Under the pieces are notes generated by a model that was given only the letters and a program-made list of their open reading frames with translations, did no database searches and was not told where the DNA came from. Positions 17,452 through 19,081 of a stretch of 64,000 bases of DNA are shown in pieces (position 1 is the first letter of the stretch; each line of letters begins with the position of its first letter). The stretch is from Flavobacteriales bacterium. GTDB taxonomy: Bacteria; Bacteroidota; Bacteroidia; Flavobacteriales_E; Vicingaceae. The position numbers and the translations under genes are program-made. The DNA lies in assembly GCA_020853105.1 (NCBI GenBank), contig JADYZM010000030.1:62001-126000 (forward strand), written 5' to 3'.

Positions 17452-17958
17452 ATGAAACCACTTGTAAGTATTATTATGGGAAGCACCAGTGACTGGAAGG
17501 TTATGCAGAAAGCTGCCGATTTTTTTGAAGAAATGGAAATCCCTTTTGAAGTAAATGCGTTGTCTGCCCATAGAACTCCTGACGAAGTTGAAAAATTTGC
17601 AAAAAATGCTAAATCCAACGGTATTAAAGTAATTATTGCTGCTGCAGGTATGGCAGCACATTTACCCGGTGTTATTTCTGCCCTAACTCCACTTCCTGTT
17701 ATTGGTGTTCCAATCAACGCTAGTTTAGACGGATTAGACGCCCTTTTGGCTATTGTTCAAATGCCTCCAGGAATCCCTGTTGCAACTGTTGCTGTTGATG
17801 GAGCTTTGAATGCTGCGATTTTAGCTACTCAAATGATTGGAACGGGTGATGAGGCTGTTTATAACAAAACAGTTACCTATAAAAACAATCTGAAATCAAA
17901 AATTGTTAAAGCAAACGAAGAGCTTGCCTCTTTTAAATATAAATTCAGGACCAATTAA
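17452..17958 (+). CDS. purE: 5-(carboxyamino)imidazole ribonucleotide mutase
   Basis: A 168-residue class I PurE that isomerises N5-CAIR to CAIR in purine synthesis. It has the substrate loop GSTSD (10-14), the catalytic SAHRTPD (38-44) with His40, and the AAAGMAAHLPGVISALT segment (about 64-80). The usual partner purK is not adjacent. The stop at 17958 is followed by the degraded region described below. Confidence 0.97.
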   Translation: MKPLVSIIMGSTSDWKVMQKAADFFEEMEIPFEVNALSAHRTPDEVEKFAKNAKSNGIKVIIAAAGMAAHLPGVISALTPLPVIGVPINASLDGLDALLAIVQMPPGIPVATVAVDGALNAAILATQMIGTGDEAVYNKTVTYKNNLKSKIVKANEELASFKYKFRTN

Positions 17959-18052
17959 AATAAATTATTCCCCTATAATAGTTTAGTTCCGTTGAATTCT
18001 TACATGATTTTTTAGGCGAGTGAACCCATTTGCTAGGTTGTGTTTTGCACCT

Positions 18053-18259
18053 CTACCTCAACACACTCATTGAACCCTTCAAACTTTCTTTTTCTCCTGA
18101 AACTTTAGTATATTCGATTACATAAAAATAAGTTCCTTCGGGGACTTTAGCACCCGAATTTGTGGTTCCGTTCCAGAGCGTGAGTTGTAGTGAATTTTTT
18201 GTAGTGGATAATTTTTGTACATCAAAATCAGCATGGTGCAGAGTGCCTGGCAAAAACAT
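18053..18259 (-). pseudogene. 3' remnant of a secreted-protein gene (T9SS/CHU_C-like C-terminal domain)
   Basis: Sixty-eight codons ending in a stop read as the end of a gliding-motility/T9SS-type C-terminal domain: LTLWNGTTNSG, then AKVPEGTYFYVIEYTKVSG, ending LKGSMSVLR. Intact domains have W(D/N)G..N.G..(L/V)P.GTYFY at this point. The frame has a TAG directly before the ATG, and no secreted-protein sequence lies upstream. Instead it runs into the transposase remnant in another frame. The similarity is by eye and covers only the last part of the domain. Confidence 0.6.
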
Positions 18260-18329
18260 CTATCCAACCAACAACTGTAAATGTTAAAAAATATGGACTT
18301 TCGGTATTTGCTTTTCGTTTTTCTGACAT
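18228..18329 (-). pseudogene. 5' remnant of a REP-associated (Y1/IS200-like) transposase gene
   Basis: From ATG 18329 the minus strand reads MSEKRKANTESPYFLTF, continues TVVGWIDVFARHSAPC and stops. The YFLTFTVVGWIDVF segment matches the first strand of Bacteroidota REP-associated tyrosine transposases, which usually begin MSxKYK...YFITFxVVGWVDVFTR. After VFAR the homology is lost and the DNA continues as the CHU_C-like remnant in another frame. The HUH motif and the catalytic tyrosine are absent, so it cannot be active. Confidence 0.6.
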
Positions 18330-18360
18330 AATGTGCTATCAAAAATAGCAAAAAAATAGT

Positions 18361-18388
18361 ACTCACTCGGCACAGCCGAGCGAGTGAG
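18361..18388. repeat. REP-like bulged hairpin
   Basis: CTCACT+CGGC, loop ACA, then GCCG, a 4-base bulge AGCG, and AGTGAG: ten paired bases with one bulge. It lies 32 bases upstream of the transposase remnant's ATG. REP elements recognised by these transposases are short, GC-richer, imperfect hairpins next to the gene, so position and shape fit. No second copy is recognised in this window. Confidence 0.4.
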
Positions 18389-18492
18389 GGGACTGTGAGG
18401 TAAAACTCAACAACCTCAAAGCAGGTATGTATTTTTATTCCGTTATGCAAAACAACCAAACCATTAAAACCGATAAATTGGTGGTGAGGTAA
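18388..18492 (+). pseudogene. 3' remnant of a T9SS cargo gene (type A sorting domain end)
   Basis: After an in-frame TGA at 18385 the plus strand reads 34 codons: ..VKLNNLKAGMYFYSVMQ.. then NNQTIKTDKLVVR and TAA. This is the typical end of a T9SS type A sorting domain (L.aGiY.y.....g....kKLvi.). The intact cargo gene at 54234-56282 ends LSAGFYIFKI..ISTNKLIKN, which aligns with it residue by residue at the key positions. A strong terminator follows 20 bases later. The rest of the gene is missing. Confidence 0.6.
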
Positions 18493-18512
18493 GAGCACGA
18501 TTAAAATTGAAT

Positions 18513-18542
18513 AAGGCTTCGGAAATTCCGAAGCCTTTTTTT
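18513..18542 (+). terminator. intrinsic terminator
   Basis: AAGGCTTCGGA, short loop, TCCGAAGCCTT followed by seven T on the plus strand. It would end transcripts from the left, once the lost T9SS cargo gene and now any purE read-through. The minus-strand direction has a poor T run. Confidence 0.8.
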
Positions 18543-19081
18543 CATCTAACACCTTGTTCCGGAAAGCGACCTTTTTTGGTTCGATAAAAATCTTTGATAA
18601 ATTTCATATCTTCCTCGATGTTTCCGGAAGGATACAAGTGAGGGCCGATACCTGCAGTTTTTGTTGAATAATCAACAAAACCTAATACGATAGGTACTTT
18701 AGCCCCCAACGCAATGTAATAAAATCCTTTTTTCCAATCGGGATTGTATTTTCTTGTTCCTTCAGGAGTAACTAACATCACTAAATTTTCTCGGCTATCG
18801 AATGATTTTATAATTTCTTCAGTTAATTTGGTGTTTTTACCTCTGTTTACGGGAATTGCACCCAACACTTTCAACAACAAGTTCATGGGGAAAAAAAACC
18901 ATTCTTTTTTAATAAAAAATTGAACCGGGATATTATATATAAAAAAATAGGCTCTGCCAATAATAAAATCCCAATTGCTGGTATGAGGAGCCCCAATAAT
19001 TACAAATTTTTTAAAGGGTGGAAGTTCACCAACAATTTTCCAACCTAAAATTTTCAATAATAAATATGAGATTTTTGACAC
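18542..19081 (-). CDS. PlsC-like acyltransferase
   Basis: A 179-residue short member of the 1-acyl-glycerol-3-phosphate acyltransferase family. The catalytic motif HxxxxD is PHTSNWDF (His33, Asp38). A later TPEGTRKYNPDWKKGF matches the phosphate-binding 'PEGTR' motif. It has no clear membrane span and probably associates with the inner membrane to acylate a lysophospholipid or ornithine lipid. The exact substrate is unknown. It is the last of three minus-strand genes spaced by 9-13 bases. Confidence 0.85.
   Translation of the reverse strand: MSKISYLLLKILGWKIVGELPPFKKFVIIGAPHTSNWDFIIGRAYFFIYNIPVQFFIKKEWFFFPMNLLLKVLGAIPVNRGKNTKLTEEIIKSFDSRENLVMLVTPEGTRKYNPDWKKGFYYIALGAKVPIVLGFVDYSTKTAGIGPHLYPSGNIEEDMKFIKDFYRTKKGRFPEQGVR

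Follow-up and report, generated by a model that had tools for sequence, protein, structure and literature searches.

The 583 bases between purE and a neighbouring acyltransferase gene (positions 17959-18541 of the window, the 64,000-nucleotide stretch of Flavobacteriales DNA analysed here) very probably represent the collapsed remains of a module that consists of two divergent T9SS cargo genes and occurs at dispersed sites; this copy was broken by a RAYT element and is now a patchwork of other copies of the module. All four pieces noted in this interval by the first-pass annotation are present where it placed them (Table 1). On the minus strand a RAYT start codon at 18329 opens 28 codons (MSEKRKANTESPYFLTFTVVGWIDVFAR) that reach approximately 18244, where the tail of a CHU_C gene takes over in a different frame, as had been described. 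The REP-like hairpin proposed to lie between the two T9SS tails is also there, its minus strand folding as DNA at -10.9 kcal/mol (z -5.0). The plus-strand tail of a type A gene and its terminator were recovered as well, the tail comprising 31 codons and not the 34 originally counted. That these pieces are real gene remnants is borne out by the rest of the genome, in which each piece has copies of 90-97% identity (E 1e-51 to 1e-93).

Table 1. Features of the purE-acyltransferase interval and its flanks in the window. Contigs of the window's own genome (G000) are given by number (C19 and so on); G001 and G002 are other species of the genus.
Feature	Position	Strand	Basis and closest relatives
purE	17452..17958	+	Left neighbour; ORF; 86% identical at empty site in G001, 82% in G002
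Unmatched DNA, 94 bp	17959..18052		Between purE stop and CHU_C stop; outside all BLAST matches
T9SS type B (CHU_C) gene, last 63 codons	18053..18243	-	93-97% identical to C28, C76
RAYT gene, first 28 codons	18244..18329	-	Translation; 95-97% identical to C59, C19
REP-like bulged hairpin, end GAGTGAGGGG	18358..18391		DNA fold; four more genomic copies
T9SS type A gene, last 31 codons	18392..18492	+	90-95% identical to C35, C60
Terminator of type A gene	18493..18541	+	100% identical to C35 terminator, 96% to C60
Acyltransferase gene	18542..19081	-	Right neighbour; ORF; 82% identical at empty site in G001, 78% in G002

Against TIGR04183 (T9SS type A C-terminal domain, TIGR04183/PF18962) the type A tail of the window scores 24.5 bits (cutoff 23) and an intact type A gene of G001 scores 51.6 bits; against TIGR04131/PF13585 the truncated CHU_C fragment reaches 19.1 bits (cutoff 35) and its near-identical copy at C76 reaches 50.7. 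On the left the module ends at the CHU_C stop codon (18055-18053), and on the right its coding part ends at the type A stop codon (18490-18492), beyond which the terminator hairpin (18513-18536) now sits between two convergent genes; the remnant probably does nothing besides supplying this terminator. No copy of the DNA at 17959-18052 was found by BLAST, and it is missing from the empty sites of G001 and G002.

When the genome to which the window belongs was searched, an 89% identical copy of the whole composite came up at C19 (E 1e-168). Two of its modules are collapsed, the one at C19 and the one in the window. The CHU_C/RAYT junction (CATGGTGCAGAG abutting TGCCTGGCAAAAACATC) is the same in both, save for one upstream base in C19, which implies that a single deletion made the junction and that it was copied afterwards. 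The genome is a draft without reads, and both composites lie inside long contigs. Two further modules were assembled there from paired contigs, the pairing being based on synteny and on 127-bp ends common to C35, C59 and C76: one (C35 and C76) looks intact, with a type A gene of 1337 codons, an XRE regulator and a CHU_C gene, and in the other (C59 and C28) the type A gene is reduced to approximately 40 codons and the CHU_C gene carries a stop codon. On contig C60 (G000:C60:1-5331) there are a type A module gene in truncated form, a RAYT interrupted by an IS982 transposase, and an HmuY-family gene. Its ends overlap by 127 bp, but we rejected a small plasmid, since the same 127-mer also begins C78 and a repeat knot is equally likely.

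In G001, three intact modules of 6-6.5 kb (G001:C1, G001:C12 and G001:C23) each comprise two divergent cargo genes with their 3' ends outside, the type A gene having 1254-1274 codons and the CHU_C gene 680-691; in two of the three a small XRE-type regulator lies between the cargo genes. Such a regulator was seen in some modules only (L046:9511-9864, L048:6923-7270, L013:13858-14220 and L124:608-961). Both tails in the window correspond exactly to the outer edges of such a module, which spans approximately 6.3 kb and encodes proteins of approximately 1270 (type A) and 690 (CHU_C) residues. The first-pass annotation had supposed that deletions joined unrelated gene ends; the two T9SS tails are instead the opposite edges of one divergent pair that is intact elsewhere, and purely unrelated ends are ruled out by the common junction together with the intact modules.

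We compared six intergenic sites (A to F) among four species of the genus (G000, G001, G002 and G003), all represented by draft assemblies, mostly from metagenomes. Site A, between purE and the acyltransferase gene, is collapsed in the window's genome and empty in G001 and G002. Site B, between an endonuclease and a histidine kinase gene, holds a collapsed module in the window's genome (C19) and an intact one in G001 (G001:C23), and is empty in G002 and G003. Sites C (ORF151/ribonucleotide reductase) and D (MurF/acyl-CoA dehydrogenase) are empty in G001, G002 and G003, the window's genome having an intact module at the former and a half-broken one (C59 and C28) at the latter. Site E (RluD/OmpA-like) is intact in G001 and empty in the other three species, and site F, upstream of ruvB, is intact in G001 and empty in G003. 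The intact cargo genes that, according to the first-pass annotation, would support its reading if relatives had them at site A are not there, purE and the acyltransferase gene being 41-43 bp apart in G001 and G002; either the lineage of the window therefore acquired the module or those of G001 and G002 lost it. At site B, on the other hand, G001:C23 and C19 lie between the same two genes, and C19 is thus an ancestral module that collapsed.

Several other arrangements were set aside. Site F of G002 (G002:C100, L103:2483-8564; 6.6 kb between the flanks) carries CusA-like efflux genes and is not a module; this intergenic site took two unrelated inserts, the module in G001 and the efflux cluster in G002. 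In G008 and G016 the CHU_C-family genes are single or tandem and have no type A partner, and the repeated T9SS genes of G012 show a different, tandem arrangement. The locus G016:C5 (L110:3524-9344), from another genus, has three tandem, frameshifted copies of a CHU_C-family gene. A scan of 84,980 species genomes detected the family in further Flavobacteriales assemblies; in three of these (L121, L124 and L128) the divergent type A partner could be seen as well. In Vicingaceae KA17 a frameshift or stop, or else an assembly error, breaks that partner (L121:2-3682) after approximately 100 codons. Inspection of module junctions and empty sites by eye revealed neither terminal inverted repeats nor target duplications, and we rejected a conventional DNA transposon for want of these and of any transposase or integrase in a module made up of two T9SS cargoes and an XRE regulator. 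Entry into an empty site could have occurred by illegitimate joining of taken-up DNA or through some recombinase.

The first-pass annotation had proposed that a RAYT/REP element inserted into a surface-protein cluster and that deletions followed, a course supported by the intermediate at C59. The order there is type A tail, REP, RAYT, REP and CHU_C gene: the REP-RAYT-REP element stands where the type A gene would have lain together with its promoter region and any regulator, the rest of that gene is gone, and the CHU_C start codon lies 33 bp beyond the second hairpin. At sites A and B everything between RAYT codon 28 and the last 63 codons of CHU_C is missing. What is left of the type A gene at sites D, A and B (approximately 40, 31 and 26 codons, respectively) abuts the same hairpin end, GAGTGAGGGG. 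The three points at which the type A tails are cut, each flush with this end, are at L010:9889-9914, L014:8290-8318 and window 18388-18392. Cut points of this kind suggest deletions anchored at the hairpin, which could stem from transposase cleavage or from hairpin slippage. We infer that a RAYT element entered one module and that the greater part of its type A gene disappeared, site D representing this first step; a second deletion would then have taken most of the RAYT and CHU_C genes, as at sites A and B, and the broken version would have been copied between sites via recombination through the common tails.

The RAYT protein at C59 scores 88.5 bits against NF047646 (cutoff 80); it has the motifs NHIH and YIHNN, and its gene has a stop codon at codon 13 and is flanked by hairpins on both sides. 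This gene (L010:9946-10476) is the sole near-complete RAYT found in the genome, and hence no intact RAYT of this family is left in the window's genome, the C60 gene being broken by IS982 and the window and C19 retaining the head only. The genome search for hairpin copies proposed by the first-pass annotation yielded four besides that of the window, that is, five in 2.87 Mb (allowing up to 2 mismatches), and did not reveal a REP-type high copy number. REP repeats have been described as two super-families, with a GTAG or a CGTC foot (PMC3733652); inspection of the aligned sites revealed neither foot beside the hairpin. The element resembles RAYT/TnpA-REP of the Bacteroidetes subclass 2.6 (PMC6006769) in its NHIH and WQ motifs, in YIHNN near the catalytic tyrosine and in a gene flanked by hairpins with copies elsewhere, but differs in having five hairpin copies only and no intact RAYT, and in an L after YIHNN where subclass 2.6 has a P (PMC6006769).

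That the remnant is a patchwork may be judged from its closest copies. In the CHU_C tail the outer part is nearest to C19 (98.6%, 71 bp) and the inner part to C76 (100%); the RAYT head is nearest to C19 and C59 (96.6 and 95.4%), the hairpin to C59 (100%), the type A tail to C60 (95.7%) and the terminator to C35 (100%), these being segments of 50-94 bp for which each closest-copy assignment is weak singly. Intact modules show such a pattern more strongly. Over the outer 812 codons of the type A gene, dS is 0.15-0.23 within G001 and 1.5-1.6 relative to the window's genome, whereas in the inner part G001:C12 differs from G001:C1 and G001:C23 at dS 1.6-1.7; the CHU_C gene has the same gradient from outer to inner. 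The N-terminal region of G001:C12 is 74% identical to that of KA17a and 36% to that of G001:C23, while KA17a and KA17b have 95% of CHU_C residues in common and 43% in the N-terminal region. Among regulators, those of G001:C23 and HGW-Bacteroidetes-12 are identical at 97 of 115 residues, whereas the regulators of two G001 modules agree at 40 of 115; regulators of a given class apparently move together with the inner halves.

Inner (N-terminal) halves thus form classes that cross species, and C-terminal regions group by genome. With N-terminal data the AU test rejected a G001 clade (p 2e-28) and a KA17 clade (p 0.002), and with C-terminal data it rejected the N-terminal classes (p 0.03 and 1e-54), the groups having been picked after the identities were seen and one N-terminal row being partial. 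These sequence patterns are best explained by homologous recombination or gene conversion, in which segments pass between modules by way of the resemblance of their outer ends, a broken interior having reached a second module by this route. In intact modules, inner halves have probably been swapped as classes and outer ends kept alike by gene conversion. More tentatively, divergent T9SS pairs might constitute a recombination system as a whole, in which inner halves and regulator are exchanged across species, the outer ends provide the homology, modules enter empty sites, and collapsed copies are dead cassettes that still exchange.

It is possible, if not the course we would favour, that the outer ends are alike from recent multiplication of the modules, which afterwards gained inner halves from other species, and not from gene conversion. 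Module positions differ among congeners, and G001:C1 and G001:C23 have the same type A inner class at dS 0.13, like their outer parts, as would be seen after recent duplication. Yet G000 and G001 each have a module at site B, and there the outer ends of G001:C23 resemble those of G001:C1 and G001:C12 and not those of G000, so that homogenisation or replacement is needed at this old site.

Exchange between modules also has to be weighed against movement of the broken composite itself, as a MITE-like piece of approximately 440-580 bp that inserted into an empty purE-acyltransferase site after collapse elsewhere. This we consider unlikely. It would agree with the empty site in G001 and G002, with the internal junction common to the window and C19, and with the agreement of the two sequences as far as the stop codon of CHU_C, the outermost 71 bp being 98.6% identical. 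However, the window has a longer type A tail than C19, together with a C35/C60 terminator that is absent from C19, and C19 is therefore not its direct source; moreover, target duplications and inverted repeats are lacking, and no transposase is known to act on such ends. REPINs and other miniature elements (PMC3116915) are likewise short non-coding repeats with a REP-like hairpin; the composite differs from them in having two copies only, in ends that are T9SS gene tails and not paired REPs, and in showing no sign of transposition as a unit.

Decay in place of two separate paralogous T9SS genes, alike through common CTD sequences, is very improbable: these CTDs are a widespread repeated domain, with at least 41 CHU_C-like places in the genome at the protein level, but at the DNA level only module copies match the window, the tails face outward as they do in every intact module, and the RAYT junction common to two sites contradicts this reading.

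Intact modules probably make two T9SS-exported surface proteins, export and surface display being predicted from the C-terminal signal domains. The T9SS has two sorting classes of signal, type A and type B (PMC9143113). The N-terminal domain of the CHU_C protein gave a good all-beta model (pLDDT 87), which matched nothing in the PDB above TM 0.30; the model of the type A N-terminal part was poor (pLDDT 55), and a PDB sequence search gave no match. A close parallel is the adhesin-domain rearrangement and allelic exchange of gingipains and HagA in Porphyromonas gingivalis (PMC5266723), where strains exchange variants of modular, T9SS-exported Bacteroidota surface proteins whose C-terminal signal is conserved. 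Unlike that system, the unit here is a divergent gene pair, found at intergenic sites that may be filled in one species and empty in another, and the variation lies in the N-terminal halves, which face each other. We found nothing direct in the open literature on concerted evolution of T9SS genes or on a divergent variable cassette in Bacteroidetes.

In the modules, then, variable inner halves lie between constant outer ends. A few pathogens are known to combine variable surface proteins with constant secretion signals, and the same logic would apply here in uncultured environmental Flavobacteriales, in the form of two paired genes whose variable halves lie in the centre and whose constant ends lie outside. 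The window would provide an example of how such modules die, with their remains still recombining. If the exchange is true, it offers a natural explanation both for the assembly breaks within these genes and for diversification of the T9SS cargo repertoire.
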